From the NCBI GenBank assembly GCA_015295905.1, contig DVEB01000047.1:1-35076 (forward strand): a DNA stretch of 35,076 bases, read 5' to 3'. Source of the DNA: Synechococcales cyanobacterium M55_K2018_004 (GTDB lineage Bacteria; Cyanobacteriota; Cyanobacteriia; Elainellales; Elainellaceae). Under the pieces are notes generated by a model, which worked only from the letters and a program-made list of their open reading frames with translations, searched no databases and was not told where the DNA came from. A program made the translations under genes and the position numbers. Shown here piece by piece: positions 5,217 to 30,035 of this stretch (within the stretch, counting starts at the first letter, position 1; each line of letters opens with the position of its first letter).

Positions 5217-5343
5217 GGCAGAAAATCATCAGACGTAAGCAGAGGAGGACAAAAGGGTTTCTCCAGTTCAACCAACGACTCCGTTTATCCGCGGTGTTTT
5301 CTGTGTAGGGTGTCTAGGACGGCTGTTCAAACGCGATACTTTC

Positions 5344-5403
5344 GTGGTTTTTGGTGGCGTGGTTTTTGGTGGCGTGGTTTTTGGTGGCGTGGTTTTTGGT
5401 GGA
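5344..5403. repeat. Tandem repeat, 15 bp x 4
   Basis: Four back-to-back copies of GTGGTTTTTGGTGGC (5344, 5359, 5374, 5389; the last ends in A). It sits between the cyclic-nucleotide-binding gene and the start of the radical-SAM gene, so on the sense strand it forms an A/C-rich leader tract (GCCACCAAAAACCAC). Confidence 0.95.
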
Positions 5404-11087: not shown

Positions 11088-11774
11088 GTGAAAAATGCCA
11101 CCTGGAAACGCTGGTTTCGACCAGTCTTAGACCTCTGCTTCAACTCAAATTGCCCGTTGTGTCAGCGTTCGACGGCGCAGGAGGTCTGCCTTGACTGTGA
11201 ACGACAGTTGCAGCAGTGCCGCTGGACCGATCTCCAGCCCCTGGCAGAAGGGTGGCCGGTGCTGGCCTGGGGCCGGTACGACGGTGCATTGCGACGGGCG
11301 ATCGCCACTCTCAAGTACAATAACACCCCGCAACTGGCGCGTCCCCTCGGACAATGGTTAGGCCAGCGCTGGCAGACCTATGCGGCCTCGGTTGCTCTGC
11401 CTGCCTTAACGGTGGTGCCGATCCCCATGCACCCAGACAAGCAAAAAAGCCGTGGGTTTAACCAGGCAGAACTGATTGCAGAGGCATTTTGCCAGCACAC
11501 ACACCTCCCCCTAGAGCGCGAGGGACTGCTGCGAGTCCGGGCCACCGAGGCTCAATTTGGTTTGTCTGCTGGGGCGCGTGCCGACAACCTGGCCAATGCC
11601 TTTGCCGTGGGGGAGGTGTTGCTGAATCGGCGATCGCCCAAAAGTATTTTGCTGGTGGATGATATCTACACTACTGGAGCAACTGCCCATTCCGCAGCCC
11701 AGACACTCCGCCGTGCAGGAATCCGGGTCTATGGAATGGTTGTTGTTGCCAGGACAATGCGTCAGGAAGGGTGA
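11088..11774 (+). CDS. comF: ComF family phosphoribosyltransferase-like protein
   Basis: A 228-residue protein. The N-terminal zinc ribbon uses Cys22, Cys25, Cys34 and Cys37 (CPLC...CLDC). The C-terminal phosphoribosyltransferase fold has ILLVDDIYTTGATAHS, the PRPP-binding loop. In naturally competent bacteria ComF proteins assist uptake of transforming DNA at the inner face of the membrane; many cyanobacteria carry a homologue. The start is GTG at 11088, with GGGAG about ten bases upstream. The last 13 bases overlap the convergent 126-residue gene, so the two 3' ends are antisense to each other. Confidence 0.92.
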   Translation: MKNATWKRWFRPVLDLCFNSNCPLCQRSTAQEVCLDCERQLQQCRWTDLQPLAEGWPVLAWGRYDGALRRAIATLKYNNTPQLARPLGQWLGQRWQTYAASVALPALTVVPIPMHPDKQKSRGFNQAELIAEAFCQHTHLPLEREGLLRVRATEAQFGLSAGARADNLANAFAVGEVLLNRRSPKSILLVDDIYTTGATAHSAAQTLRRAGIRVYGMVVVARTMRQEG

Positions 11775-12142
11775 AAAATAGGGCGGACTGAGGACGTTTC
11801 TCCGCTGCCAAAAATAGGGGAAGGACTCAGTCCTGTGATCTGCTGAAACTGGGCAGGCGTAACGGTGCTGACGATAGGTTGAGTTTCCCAACTTTTAAGC
11901 TTGTCGTGGGTCTGCCTAAGAAAATCGATGCCGCGTGTCATTGGGAGCTTGACCCATTGATCAACGAGGGTTTCAACTAATGCCAGTTCCACCAGTGGGG
12001 TTGGATAGAGCTTGAGCAAATTGTCGAGATAGAGGTCAAACGGGCTGTTTACCCTATCCTCTTCCGCCAAACCGCCATCCAGACGGTAACTACTCACAAT
12101 GTATTTAACTCGCTGTTGATTAACCTGTTCCTGAATATCCAT
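11762..12142 (-). CDS. Conserved cyanobacterial hypothetical protein, 126 aa
   Basis: I do not recognise a named family. The protein is soluble and acidic to neutral, with a helical core (SPFDLYLDNLLKLYPTPLVELALVETLVDQW, then FLRQTHDKLKSWE) and a low-complexity C-terminal tail. No signal peptide or membrane segment is seen. Start: ATG at 12142 (a TTG one codon earlier is less likely). The stop lies inside the 3' end of comF on the other strand. Coding character and a clean frame support a real gene. Confidence 0.7.
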   Translation of the reverse strand: MDIQEQVNQQRVKYIVSSYRLDGGLAEEDRVNSPFDLYLDNLLKLYPTPLVELALVETLVDQWVKLPMTRGIDFLRQTHDKLKSWETQPIVSTVTPAQFQQITGLSPSPIFGSGETSSVRPIFHPS

Positions 12143-12394
12143 CAATGGCTAAATCGAAAATGAGTTGAAACGTTGACCTGCAAACCTTGATCGGAAGTAT
12201 GAACCTAAAGATTAAGGACACTTTAACGCGTCTTTTGCAAATCTTCAAAAGCAATATCCCATATTTTTAAGCCAACGTGAATTCCGGAGAAGTTCAACCC
12301 CCTGCTTTCCCTGCGCGACGCGCACAGAAAATCCAGAATTTTGGGGCACTGCGCCCGGCGCAGTGCCCCAAAACCCTCTTAACCAGAACTGACG
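12143..12394. other. Spacer with element C3
   Basis: The left 130 bases show no feature beyond AT-rich sequence (possible promoter of the 126-residue gene). The right half is family C element C3. Confidence 0.6.
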
Positions 12395-12653: not shown

Positions 12654-12743
12654 GCATGAATCTGTTGCGTGAATCTGTTGCGTGAATCTGTTGTGTGAAC
12701 CTAGTGCGTGAACCTAGTGTGTGAACCTAGTGTGTGAACCTGT
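12654..12743. repeat. Tandem repeat, 13 bp x 7
   Basis: Six full 13-base units and one 12-base unit, starting at 12654, 12667, 12680, 12693, 12706, 12719 and 12732. Units 1-3 read GCRTGAATCTGTT and units 4-6 read GYGTGAACCTAGT, so the array has two sub-types. It lies between the gltD 3' end and the small gene. Confidence 0.95.
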
Positions 12744-12766
12744 GTGTGACCGAGGAGAATGGGGAT

Positions 12767-12792
12767 GCAGTTGAAACGAGCAGTTGAAACGA
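12767..12792. repeat. Tandem duplication, 13 bp x 2
   Basis: GCAGTTGAAACGA is repeated exactly, just beyond the terminator hairpin of gltD. Confidence 0.9.
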
Positions 12793-12834: not shown

Positions 12835-14319
12835 TTAGGGAAGGTCAGTGCTGCCCATTAAGTAGCGATCGCACTCTCGGGCAGCGCCCCGTCCTTCATT
12901 AATGGCCCACACCACGAGACTTTGTCCCCGCCGACAATCACCAGCGGCAAACACACCAGGAATGCTGGTGGCAAAGTTGCCGTGGTCCGCTTTGACGTTA
13001 CTGCGGGCATCGCGTTCAATGCCGAGGGCATCCAGCAATGGTTGTTCTGGCCCCAGGAAGCCCATTGCCAGCAACACCAGTTGAGCCGGTAAGACCTTTT
13101 CTGTGCCGGCGATCGGGTTGGGGACAAATTGTCCCTTGTCGTTGCGCCGCCAGTCCACCTCAACCGTATGAACAGCCTTCACATTGCCCAGACCATCGCC
13201 TTCAAACTTTGTGGCGGTAGTGGTGTAGACCCGTGGGTCAGCGCCGAATAGTGCTGCGGCTTCCTCCTGTCCATAGTCCATCTTGTAGACTTTGGGCCAT
13301 TCGGGCCAGGGATTGTTGGGGGCGCGTTCGTTGGGTGGCTTGGGCATGATCTCCAGTTGCACCAGACTGCGGCAGCCGTGACGAATGGAGGTGGCCACGC
13401 AGTCGGTGCCTGTATCCCCACCGCCGATGATCACAACATCTTTGCCTTGGGCAGAAATGAAGCTGCCGTTTTTGTGGCGATCGAGCAATGCTTTGGTATT
13501 ACCCGTCAGGAAATCCATAGCGAAGTGAATGCCCTTGAGTTCGCGGCCCTCGATGGGGAGATCGCGCGGCTTCGTTGCCCCCATGCAGAGTAATACGGCG
13601 TCAAACTCGTTGAGTAACACCTCAGCCGCAATATCCTTACCGACTTCCGTGTTGCAGATAAACTTCACGCCTTCTTGCTCCAGCAGGCTCAGCCGACGTA
13701 GCACCACCTGCTCTTTGTCGAGCTTCATGTTGGGGATGCCGTACATCAACAGTCCACCTGGGCGGTCGGCGCGTTCAAACACTGTTACCCAGTGTCCGGC
13801 TGTATTGAGTTGGGCTGCAGCGGCTAGACCCGCAGGGCCAGACCCCACGATCGCCACTTTTTTGCCCGTGCGTTTGGCTGGAGCTTGGGACGTGATCCAT
13901 CCCTCTTCCCAGCCTTTTTCGGCAATGGAGTATTCCAGGTTCTTGATCGTCACAGGCGGATTGGTGATGCCCAACACACAGGATCCTTCGCAGGGAGCAG
14001 GACAGACGCGCCCGGTAAATTCGGGGAAGTTATTGGTCTTGTGGAGGCGATCGAGCGCTTCTTTCCACAGGCCACGATACACCAGGTCATTCCATTCGGG
14101 GATCAGGTTGTTGATAGGGCAGCCACTTGCCATGCCACTGATCAGCGTCCCTGTGTGACAGAAGGGGGTGCCACAGTCCATACACCGTGCTGCTTGGGTG
14201 CGCAGTCGTTCTTCCGGCATGGGCAGGTGAAATTCATCCCAGTTGCGGATGCGATCGCCCGGTGCAACTTCAGAGGCAACTTCTCGCAGAAATTCAATAA
14301 AGCCAGTTGGTTTTCCCAT
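12835..14319 (-). CDS. gltD: Glutamate synthase small subunit
   Basis: A 494-residue GltD-type protein. It passes electrons from NAD(P)H through FAD and 4Fe-4S clusters to the large subunit, which makes glutamate from glutamine and 2-oxoglutarate. The N-terminus carries the cluster cysteines [10 protein letters not shown] (Cys46, Cys49, Cys54) and [10 protein letters not shown] first dinucleotide fold [15 protein letters not shown] is followed by [15 protein letters not shown]; a second, [13 protein letters not shown], binds the pyridine nucleotide. The C-terminal [19 protein letters not shown] is conserved. The ATG at 14319 gives [10 protein letters not shown], the usual start. It lies 104 bases downstream of gltB on the same strand, an operon arrangement. 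Confidence 0.97.
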
Positions 14320-22126: not shown

Positions 22127-22225
22127 TAGGAATCCGTCTGTAAAGTAGCAGTTTGTCGTGGTGTAAAACGTGCAGCGCACGTTTTACACCACGACAAACT
22201 GACTCAATAACCGACGGAGTCGGTA
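22127..22225 (-). repeat. Family A element with perfect 25-bp stem (A4)
   Basis: A complete reversed copy bounded by TA. Stem arms 22149-22173 and 22177-22201 pair perfectly around AGC. Termini: TAGGAATCCGTCTG and CCGACGGAGTCGGTA. Confidence 0.95.
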
Positions 22226-22299
22226 TGATAATTATTTTATTGTCACGCTAGTCGCCTCATCAGGCAGAGTCTCAGAAGCTCAGACCCAAAGCCTCAGCA

Positions 22300-23445
22300 T
22301 CAGATCCGAAACACAGGCAAGGTGAAGTGAAAACAACTGCCCCGGCCTAGTTCAGAATCAACCCAGATTTGCCCATAGTGCGCCTTCACAATGCGTTGAC
22401 AGAGCGCCAGGCCAATGCCGTACCCTTCCGTCGCCTCATCGCGTTCCAGGCGGAAGCGGTCTTCAAAAATGCGTTCGCGGTTTTCCGCTGGGATCCCTGG
22501 ACCGGTGTCACAGACACTCACCTGGACCTTTTGAGTGGTGCGATGCAACGCACTCACCTCAATTGTGCCGCCTGTTGGGGTGTACTTAATCGCATTGTCC
22601 AGCAAGTTAATGATGACCTGACGGACTCGGTCAGGGTCGGCAAACACCAAGGGTAAATCACTGGGAATGTCCACCTTGAGGTGCTGCATCTTTGACTCCG
22701 ACTGGTTACTCAGGCGATCGAGAATTTCCAGGCATAACTCGCCCAAATTAAGCTTTTGGGGCTGAATTTGCAGTTGCGAGCTAGTCGTCCGGGCTGCCTG
22801 CAGAATGTCGGTAATCATCCGATCAATGGCTTTGCTCTGGGTGCGGGCGTGACGCAACAACTGAGACATCATCTCAGGAGTCATACGGACGTAGCGTTCC
22901 TGTTGCTGCGGATCGAGTCCCATTTCTAGGGTTTCTAGAGCAATGGAAACTGCCGTTAGGGGATTCCGCAGGTCATGGGCTAGCATTGCAATCAATCGCT
23001 CTTTGAACTGAAGCTGAGCCTGCAACTCTTCCATTTCCTGGCGGAGCCGAAAGATTTCGTCCGTCAGCTTCAATATTTCTGAGTACTGATTCAGCGATTG
23101 CAGCGGTGGAGCAGGCTGGTCGCCATCCAGCCCTACCGAATCTTCCAGTGATTGTTGCCAGCGTGGCCACCAAGTTTCCACCTGAGCAATCAGGTTGCTG
23201 CCGGCAAGGGTCTGCCGCGGCTCAGGATAGATCTTCACCAGAGTTGGTGTCGCAACCAACTTAAAGTGTTCTGCCAAGTGGGGTTGCTCTCCCACGTCGA
23301 TGACCTGCAAATCAAAATCGTGAATTTGCCTAAGTTGCTCTAAGTGCTCCTGAATCTGTCGATTTTTGTCACCGGAACTGGGGCGCTTGTCAATAAAGAG
23401 CAAGAGCTGAAGCGGGACTTTTGAGCAATTAGTCTGGGTAGACAT
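22300..23445 (-). CDS. sasA: Circadian output histidine kinase SasA
   Basis: A 381-residue kinase. Residues about 10-95 form the KaiB-like/thioredoxin-fold sensory domain that docks on KaiC (LQLLLFIDKRPSSGDKN, LQVIDVGEQPHLAEHF, ATPTLVKIYPEPRQTLAG). A helical segment (LTDEIFRLRQEMEELQAQ) leads to the HisKA box MLAHDLRNPLTA, with His157 as phosphate acceptor. The ATPase domain has DNAIKYTPTGG, CDTGPGIP and GYGIGLALC. In the clock pathway SasA is stimulated by KaiC and phosphorylates RpaA. Domain order and length match the family. Start: ATG at 23445 with GGAG five bases upstream; an upstream TTG at 23484 lacks that support. No kai genes are in the window. Confidence 0.95.
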   Translation of the reverse strand: MSTQTNCSKVPLQLLLFIDKRPSSGDKNRQIQEHLEQLRQIHDFDLQVIDVGEQPHLAEHFKLVATPTLVKIYPEPRQTLAGSNLIAQVETWWPRWQQSLEDSVGLDGDQPAPPLQSLNQYSEILKLTDEIFRLRQEMEELQAQLQFKERLIAMLAHDLRNPLTAVSIALETLEMGLDPQQQERYVRMTPEMMSQLLRHARTQSKAIDRMITDILQAARTTSSQLQIQPQKLNLGELCLEILDRLSNQSESKMQHLKVDIPSDLPLVFADPDRVRQVIINLLDNAIKYTPTGGTIEVSALHRTTQKVQVSVCDTGPGIPAENRERIFEDRFRLERDEATEGYGIGLALCQRIVKAHYGQIWVDSELGRGSCFHFTLPVFRI

Positions 23446-23446
23446 T

Positions 23447-23472
23447 GTCTCCACGAGATGTCTCCACGAGAT
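23447..23472. repeat. Tandem duplication, 13 bp x 2, over the sasA ribosome-binding site
   Basis: GTCTCCACGAGAT is repeated exactly. On the sasA strand each copy carries GGAGAC, so the Shine-Dalgarno sequence is present twice; the proximal one is correctly spaced from the ATG at 23445. Confidence 0.9.
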
Positions 23473-23540
23473 TTGGCAGGGCAAACTGCAGCTGAATCAT
23501 ACTGCTCCCACGCAAGAGCCGTTGCAACAGGCAACACTTT

Positions 23541-23592
23541 AAGTTGTACTTATACACTATCTCGTTAAGTTGTACTTATACACTATCTCGTT
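23541..23592 (-). repeat. Tandem duplication, 26 bp x 2, upstream of sasA
   Basis: An exact 26-bp direct repeat. Read toward sasA, each unit contains AGTGTATAAGTA, a plausible -10 element (TATAAG). The duplication may therefore double a sasA promoter box. No matching -35 can be named with confidence. Confidence 0.85.
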
Positions 23593-24206: not shown

Positions 24207-25394
24207 ATGAAAATCCTGGCTTTGGCTTGGGAGTTTCCTCCCCGAATTGTTGGAGGAATCGCCCGTCATGTCGCAGAACTCTATCCAGAACTGGCCAAAC
24301 TGGGTCACGAAATCCACGTGATTACCGTTGAGTTTGGTCAGGCACCGGGTTACGAAGTGGTTGAGGGCATCCACGTTCACCGAGTGCCTGTTGGCCCCAG
24401 CCATGATTTCTTTCACTGGGTCGCCAATATGAATGAGAGCATGGGACGACACGGCGGCAAGGTTTTGCAAGAAGATGGTCAGTTTGACCTGATCCATGCC
24501 CATGACTGGCTGGTGAGCGATGCGGCGATCGCCCTCAAGCACACCTTCCGGATTCCCCTGATTGCCACCATCCACGCCACCGAGTTCGGTCGTCACAGCG
24601 GGCTACATAACCCTACCCACCACTACATCCACGACAAAGAGCGACTATTGGCCCACGAAGCCTGGCGCGTCATTGTTTGTACCAACTACATGCGCCACGA
24701 AGTCGCGCGGGTGATCCACACCCCCTGGGACAAGATCGATGTGGTCTACAACGGCATCCGCCCTGGGAAAAAGCCCTCCCGCGACGAGTTCGATTACTGG
24801 GAGTTTCGTCGCCGCTTTGCTGCCGACCCAGAACGCATTGTCTACTATGTCGGTCGCATGACCTACGAGAAGGGTATTCATGTGCTGCTCGATGCCGCTC
24901 CCAAAGTGCTGTGGGAGATGGAGAGAGCCGTCAAGTTTGTGATCATCGGCGGGGGCCATACCGACCATCTGAAGCGACAGGCAGGGGAACTTGGCATCTG
25001 GGACAAGTGCTATTTTGCTGGGTTTATGCCCGACCGCGAACTCGACCACTTTCAGACAATCGCCGACTGTGCCGTGTTTCCCAGCCTGTACGAACCCTTT
25101 GGCATTGTGGCACTCGAGAGCTTTGCTGCACGGGTGCCGGTCGTGGTTTCTAATGCGGGTGGTTTCCCAGAGGTGGTGCAACACTCCAAGACGGGGATTG
25201 TTACCCAGGCAGGCAACGCCGACTCCCTGGCTTGGGGCATCTTGGAGGTGCTGAAAAATCCAAGCTATGCCAAGTGGTTGGTCGATAATGCCTATGCCGA
25301 GCTAGACGACAAGTTTTGTTGGGCAAAGTTGGCAGTACAGACTGCAGCCATCTACACCCGGGTAGTGCAGGAGCGACAACAGGTAGACTGGTGA
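24207..25394 (+). CDS. GT4-family glycosyltransferase
   Basis: A 395-residue GT-B fold enzyme. The N-terminal half begins MKILALAWEFPPRIVGGIAR, the glycine-rich acceptor-side start of GT4 and starch-synthase-like enzymes. The C-terminal half has YYVGRMTYEKGIHVLLDA and the donor-binding signature EPFGIVALES, with two glutamates seven residues apart. Retaining GT4 enzymes use nucleotide-sugars to build polysaccharides, glycolipids or glycogen-like polymers. The sugar and acceptor cannot be read from the sequence. It is cytoplasmic with no membrane segment. The ATG at 24207 is preceded by GGGCGG. The helicase gene follows 96 bases later on the same strand, probably by chance. Confidence 0.9.
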   Translation: MKILALAWEFPPRIVGGIARHVAELYPELAKLGHEIHVITVEFGQAPGYEVVEGIHVHRVPVGPSHDFFHWVANMNESMGRHGGKVLQEDGQFDLIHAHDWLVSDAAIALKHTFRIPLIATIHATEFGRHSGLHNPTHHYIHDKERLLAHEAWRVIVCTNYMRHEVARVIHTPWDKIDVVYNGIRPGKKPSRDEFDYWEFRRRFAADPERIVYYVGRMTYEKGIHVLLDAAPKVLWEMERAVKFVIIGGGHTDHLKRQAGELGIWDKCYFAGFMPDRELDHFQTIADCAVFPSLYEPFGIVALESFAARVPVVVSNAGGFPEVVQHSKTGIVTQAGNADSLAWGILEVLKNPSYAKWLVDNAYAELDDKFCWAKLAVQTAAIYTRVVQERQQVDW

Positions 25395-29921: not shown

Positions 29922-29933
29922 GGAAAAGCCTGA

Positions 29934-30035
29934 TACCGACTCCGTCGCTTATTGAGTCGGTTTGTTGTGGTGTAAACCGTGCGCAGCGCACGGTTTACAC
30001 CACAACAAACTGCTACTTTACAGACGGATTCTGTA
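29934..30035 (+). repeat. Family A element with perfect 25-bp stem (A5)
   Basis: A complete copy: TACCGACTCCGTCGC...CAGACGGATTCTGTA. Arms 29960-29984 and 29986-30010 pair perfectly around a single A. Compared with A4, two stem positions have changed on both arms, so pairing is kept. Confidence 0.95.

Follow-up and report, generated by a model that had tools for sequence, protein, structure and literature searches.

Introduction

In S. elongatus PCC 7942, SasA is a histidine kinase that phosphorylates RpaA, and a truncating mutation of sasA renders a circadian reporter arrhythmic and alters growth (PMC12435244). The clock of that organism is known to be sensitive to SasA (PMC12435244). There the protein itself was truncated, whereas in the locus described here the control region alone is altered. 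No paper on a duplicated sasA promoter stood out in the literature searched, as judged from the listings.

Direct repeats beside start codons, as found here, are also described for the heptamer TAACTGA in Beggiatoaceae and some cyanobacteria, where copies just upstream of start codons were suggested to serve translational regulation (PMC4679880). That system comprises many sets of one heptamer; ours is one locus, and its repeated 13-mer includes the start codon. Also comparable are the slippage-type short tandem duplications found outside genes. In the source genome and four relatives analysed here, these have units of 10-44 bp repeated exactly, head to tail, in two or a few copies, mostly in non-ORF sequence. 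The pair described here shares these properties but lies on a start codon and a promoter-like element, not on spacer.

We analysed the control region of sasA in a 35,076-nucleotide stretch of cyanobacterial DNA, hereafter the window. Our main reading, to which we assign a probability of about 60%, is that two lineage-specific slippage duplications gave sasA a second copy of a promoter element and a new Shine-Dalgarno sequence.

The sasA gene and its duplicated control region

The gene on the minus strand at 22300-23454, counted from a GTG homologous to the starts of its relatives, encodes an adaptive-response histidine kinase. Its protein matched NCBIfam PRK09303 over residues 3-380 with 547.8 bits (cut-off 342); this model is titled 'histidine kinase' in NCBIfam, and we take it to be the SasA model. 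The Pfam domains KaiB (15-96), HisKA (148-221) and HATPase_c (270-378) follow in this order. The identification of the gene as sasA in the initial annotation is thus borne out by the profile match and the domain architecture. The same genome carries kaiC (circ_KaiC, 1052.9 bits, cut-off 546.25, contig C176). A divergent family-4 glycosyltransferase gene neighbours sasA on the plus strand (24207-25394; Pfam Glycos_transf_1, 156.9 bits). The Rfam scan of the window gave no match at the gathering threshold, and the tRNA search of the window found none.

The control region of the kinase gene carries two exact tandem duplications. The 13-bp unit TGTCTCCACGAGA is present in two head-to-tail copies that are 100% identical (23446-23458 and 23459-23471), with the repeat extending to 23472. 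The 26-bp unit TTAAGTTGTACTTATACACTATCTCG likewise occurs as two 100% identical copies (23539-23564 and 23565-23590), and here the repeat extends to 23592. Read on the minus strand, as sasA is, the units are TCTCGTGGAGACA and CGAGATAGTGTATAAGTACAACTTAA, respectively. Both had been reported as exact duplications at 23446-23592, with coordinates and minus-strand letters that proved correct. The gene-proximal 13-bp copy (23446-23458, minus strand) holds the probable start codon, and the GTG of the upstream copy (23465-23467 within 23459-23471, minus strand) is out of frame. On the same strand, promoter-like elements begin at 23561 in the gene-proximal 26-bp copy (GATAGTGTATAAGTACAACTTAAA) and at 23587 in the distal one.

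The source genome is a draft assembly of 5.0 Mb in 362 contigs, rated 99.98% complete. With up to three mismatches allowed, no further copy of the 26-mer was found in the 5.0-Mb assembly, and matches of the sasA control region elsewhere in the genome covered only 15-28 bases.

Position of the start codon

We compared the starts of 44 sasA loci; removal of two with identical upstream copies (L031, L083) and three without a resolved start (L028, L030, L033) left the window and 38 relatives, none of them congeneric with the source. The proteins of 37 of the 38 relatives open with M-[EQK]-, in 31 of the 37 as ATG-GAG, although eight of the 38 starts were located with the pattern M[EQK][AVP], which presupposes this outcome. 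The remaining 30 starts were set at whichever ATG came closest to 13 codons before xLQLLLF, a rule biased toward that spacing; the start lies exactly 13 codons before the motif in 22 of these 30, the same spacing as for GTG 23454. In the window, the 13th codon before PLQLLLF is a GTG (23452-23454, minus strand), placed by alignment to relatives, not by a gene finder. It is followed by GAG-ACA-ATG-TCT, and the counterparts of GTG-GAG-ACA-ATG-TCT are ATG-GAG-GCA-TTG-CCC in L010 and M-E-T-L-P in L006. As relatives mostly open with ATG-GAG, usually 13 codons before the LQLLLF motif, ATG 23445 is most likely codon 4, and sasA probably starts at GTG 23454, within the 13-bp repeat.

The initial annotation had taken the 13-bp repeat as a ribosome-binding site before an ATG. 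By homology the repeat spans the start codon GTG 23454 itself, and the GGAG adjoining it belongs to codon 2. A duplication across the start was seen in the window only, in one of 39 regions compared (-60 to +45). The same annotation had raised the case that the duplications are fixed in relatives; neither was found within 300 bp upstream or in the -60 to +45 region of any of the 38 relatives whose start could be placed, none of them congeneric. Both duplications are most likely lineage-specific.

A Shine-Dalgarno-like sequence in the 13-bp repeat

The duplication creates a Shine-Dalgarno-like GGAG (23462-23465, minus strand) 7 nt before GTG 23454, inside the 5-10 nt range of Shine-Dalgarno spacing. 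We calculated the duplex of the leader with the anti-Shine-Dalgarno sequence. With two 13-bp copies its energy was -6.4 kcal/mol, from the four-base core only, versus no pairing with one copy. For these energies we used what we take to be the usual cyanobacterial anti-Shine-Dalgarno sequence, because the 3' end of the 16S rRNA was not found in the assembly. Neither a covariance model, which also missed 5 of 14 control genomes, nor a 3'-end pattern found 16S rRNA in the draft; perhaps it was a collapsed repeat absent from the assembly. Pairing at least as strong as in the window (-6.4 or better) was reached in three of 32 rows of relatives (L005, L008, L027) and was weaker in the other 29; two of the 32 rows repeat others, and L030 was included with a provisional GTG start.

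Shine-Dalgarno cores occurred at -16 to -5 before 29 of 136 genes of the source genome, versus 8 of 136 and 12 of 136 at control positions. The enrichment was weak in two of four relatives sampled (5 of 41 versus 4 and 1; 12 of 46 versus 5 and 10). Such enrichment makes the Shine-Dalgarno reading plausible, though most sampled genes are without a core.

Folding of the sasA leader was not stabler than that of shuffled sequences (z 0.51; 132 of 200 shuffles folded at least as well). Within the predicted fold, GGAG was mostly paired, with an unpaired probability of about 0.13-0.15, and under both transcript starts assumed a second copy made the start codon more accessible (unpaired 0.78 with two copies vs 0.37 with one, and 0.87 vs 0.78). 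The fold also contains a 7-nt complementarity between ACGAGAT of the 26-mer and ATCTCGT of the 13-mer, which a rough reckoning placed at chance level.

A potential out-of-frame upstream ORF of 12 codons, VETSRGDNVYPD up to its stop, overlaps the sasA start (23429-23467, minus strand), and it is possible that it is translated. In one relative, L005 (G014:C305), the sequence ATGGAGGCA, which is the sasA start in relatives, opens a frame that stops after eight codons. The ATG in the sasA frame of L005 lies 23 nt downstream of the ATGGAGGCA ATG, and the old GGAGG is 16 nt before this new start, beyond the usual spacing. L005 may perhaps represent a second route by which codon 2 comes to serve as a Shine-Dalgarno sequence.

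A promoter-like element in the 26-bp repeat

The 26-mer reads GATAGTGTATAAGTACAACTTAA and includes GATAGTGTATAAGTA, which is near the GATAGTCTATAAATA-type element found before sasA of four relatives. Each copy contains a -10-like hexamer TATAAG on the minus strand, at 23549-23554 in the proximal and at 23575-23580 in the distal copy. The initial annotation had placed the repeat over a -10-like box; the box does resemble the element of the four relatives in a post hoc comparison, and its promoter function we infer.

The element of these relatives, here called B type, stands before sasA in L002, L015, L021 and L081 and reads GATAGTCTATAAATAGTAAAGAAA, exactly or with at most four mismatches. L021 and L081 share one genus, and L002 has the closest sasA by protein. 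The window element agrees with the B type in 17 of 24 letters. A matrix built from the four relatives ranked the proximal copy third among all positions on both strands of 311 kb of the source genome (14.4 bits) and gave the distal copy 11.1 bits, in a comparison picked after the resemblance had been noticed. With up to two mismatches, GATAGTCTATAAATA occurred within the 311 kb only at the two 26-bp copies. The pattern GATASTSTATAARTA, drawn up to include the letters of the window, matched five times in 36 genomes, four of them before sasA (two in the window and one each in G009 and G001).

Other searches did not select the 26-bp copies. For the proximal copy, a matrix of the A type described below (15 relatives) gave -18 bits and a pooled A and B matrix -2 bits. 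An unsupervised motif trained on 28 relatives scored the 26-mer copies at -4.1 bits and placed its best site in the window elsewhere, at -354, with a weak 6.8 bits. This training set left out L001, L005, L030, L031 and L083, and the loci L011, L020, L022, L026, L076, L077, L080, L082 and L084, which were resolved later, were absent from it. Neither copy was listed by a generic sigma-70 promoter scan, and inspection revealed no convincing -35 hexamer for them. Relative to the GTG, the two promoter-like elements stand near -107 and -133, and the element of relatives (up to five mismatches) at -58 to -412. The 26-bp unit is probably the core promoter of sasA in the window, now present twice.

An element before sasA in the family

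A second element, the A type AAATCTGTCAAAATNRTTAAG, was found with at most one mismatch in 16 of 36 family genomes. It occurred once in each, always before sasA, with the glycosyltransferase gene divergent; a homologue of this gene adjoins sasA in all 16 loci with the element. One example is a 21-bp site at 1501-1521 of L124 (G007:C230:18632-18652). At the same threshold, no match was present in the genome of the window. In a sample of 388 genomes of the class, 20 had the A type, namely the same 16 and four others, in which no sasA was seen in the fetched loci. In three of these four, all outside the family, the element differs by one mismatch and precedes one and the same gene. Read by eye, this gene begins with MAFEQSPLPFAPDALESAGMKAETFEYHYGKHHKAY, and it is presumably that of iron superoxide dismutase.

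The unsupervised motif search over 28 relatives recovered the A-type element, with AAATCTGTAAAAATGATTAAGA as the best model, and its letters TGTCAAAAT/TGTTAAAAT resemble what we take to be the consensus of an extended -10 box. In roughly half of the relatives, no clear instance of either type is present. The titles and opening abstract lines of the literature searched contained no mention of the A-type element. A 21-24-bp element present once per genome before sasA in 16 of 36 family genomes is a candidate, open to experiment, for controlling the transcription of sasA specifically.

Frequency of short tandem duplications

We counted exact tandem duplications (unit 10-80 bp) in 311 kb of the source genome, made up of the window and 276 kb of other stretches. 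There were 43, compared with 0, 0, 0, 1 and 0 in five first-order Markov resamplings of the same sequence, indicating that the duplications in the window are not chance matches. The 61 kb outside ORFs of at least 100 codons held 31 of the 43 and the 250 kb inside held 12, giving densities of 5.07 and 0.48 per 10 kb, an approximately ten-fold difference; the 13-bp repeat fell into the inside class, since the mask for its ORF ran from TTG 23484. In four relatives, 100 kb each contained 12, 28, 10 and 4 such duplications, and in six of the 38 relatives the 300 bp upstream of sasA hold a tandem duplication unrelated to those of the window. This frequency in the source genome and its relatives shows that the type of mutation is ordinary, and the interest of the locus is in where the duplications fell, together with the sasA-specific element.

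Proposed origin and alternative explanations

In the course of events that we favour, the region would have undergone two replication-slippage events (slippage being the presumed mechanism), independent as far as visible. The 13-bp event would have copied the ancestral start-codon region TCTC-GTG-GAG-ACA, with the proximal copy preserving the frame. The inner GTG would stay the start, and the codon-2 GGAG of the outer copy would now stand 7 nt ahead of it. At this ordinary Shine-Dalgarno spacing, translation would probably initiate more strongly; the outer GTG could launch the 12-codon out-of-frame decoy peptide and so counteract the gain. The 26-bp event would have doubled a core promoter element of the -10 type, so that two potential promoters, spaced 26 bp, might be used jointly. 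Each of the two changes would be expected to increase the amount of SasA made, and the duplications may have raised sasA expression. The simplest evolutionary reading is that the mutations were neutral or raised expression mildly, in a genome prone to such duplications. If our reading holds, the locus is a clear natural example of how a single slippage event can make the codon beside a start act as the Shine-Dalgarno sequence of that start; most relatives of the lineage pair weakly there (29 of the 32 rows).

Several explanations compete with this one. One is pure neutrality, which we hold to be less likely than our main reading: slippage would have produced both duplications, and they would persist without affecting sasA expression because non-coding sequence tolerates them. 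It would agree with the frequency of such duplications outside ORFs in the source genome and relatives, the different duplications near sasA in six of 38 relatives, the many genes that manage without a Shine-Dalgarno core at the usual place (present in just 29 of 136 sampled) and the predicted pairing of GGAG. However, both duplications fell on parts that look functional by homology, the start codon and the promoter-like element, and not on empty spacer. Neutrality would also be compatible with a start at ATG 23445, in which case the repeat would double the ribosome-binding site of that codon. ATG is the commonest start codon, which counts for this choice, and ATG 23445 is in frame with GGAG upstream. 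Relatives nevertheless begin three codons further up, where ATG-GAG-GCA aligns with GTG-GAG-ACA, and the two GGAG sequences would lie only 3 nt (proximal) and 16 nt (distal) from this ATG, making it an improbable start.

TTG 23484 is a still weaker candidate, and we give it very little credence. An open frame does run from it across both 13-bp copies, so that the duplication would be coding and the N-terminus altered, but the residues before M-E-A are dissimilar among relatives, and in at least five of them (L008, L014, L017, L023, L024) the open frame begins just two codons before M-E-A. Equally hard to credit is an origin of the duplications in the assembly. The source genome is a draft of 362 contigs; against this, the relatives G002 and G008, single-contig each, carry the same kind of duplication. 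Short-read assemblers collapse short tandem repeats more often than they expand them, which also counts against an artefact. At the other extreme, and in our view quite improbably, the duplications might be adaptive and set the expression of the clock-output kinase in a way that slippage can reverse. If this were true, the Shine-Dalgarno sequence would disappear or return as one 13-bp copy is lost or regained, with the frame after the inner GTG unchanged. A 26-bp copy lost or gained would alter the number of sasA promoter elements, and cells of one population could differ in SasA level.

Other repeats in the window

Repeats of other kinds were observed elsewhere in the window. Four exact copies of CGTGGTTTTTGGTGG lie between long ORFs at 5343-5402. 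Between the minus-strand ORFs 11762-12145 and 12835-14319 there is a dense tandem array with several 13-bp units (12657-12792), and also an inverted repeat whose perfect 17-bp arms enclose a 1-nt loop (12339-12373), terminator-like or a hairpin of a repeat family. Just 3' of sasA, a palindromic repeat of ~97 bp (22130-22226) has perfect 25-bp hairpin arms at 22149-22173 and 22177-22201. Copies with 82-94% identity occur at no fewer than 40 other places in the genome (40 of 312 first-look candidates scored), and the window also shows the repeat at 1463-1565 and 29933-30031. By its letters it looks like a member of a MITE or REP family.
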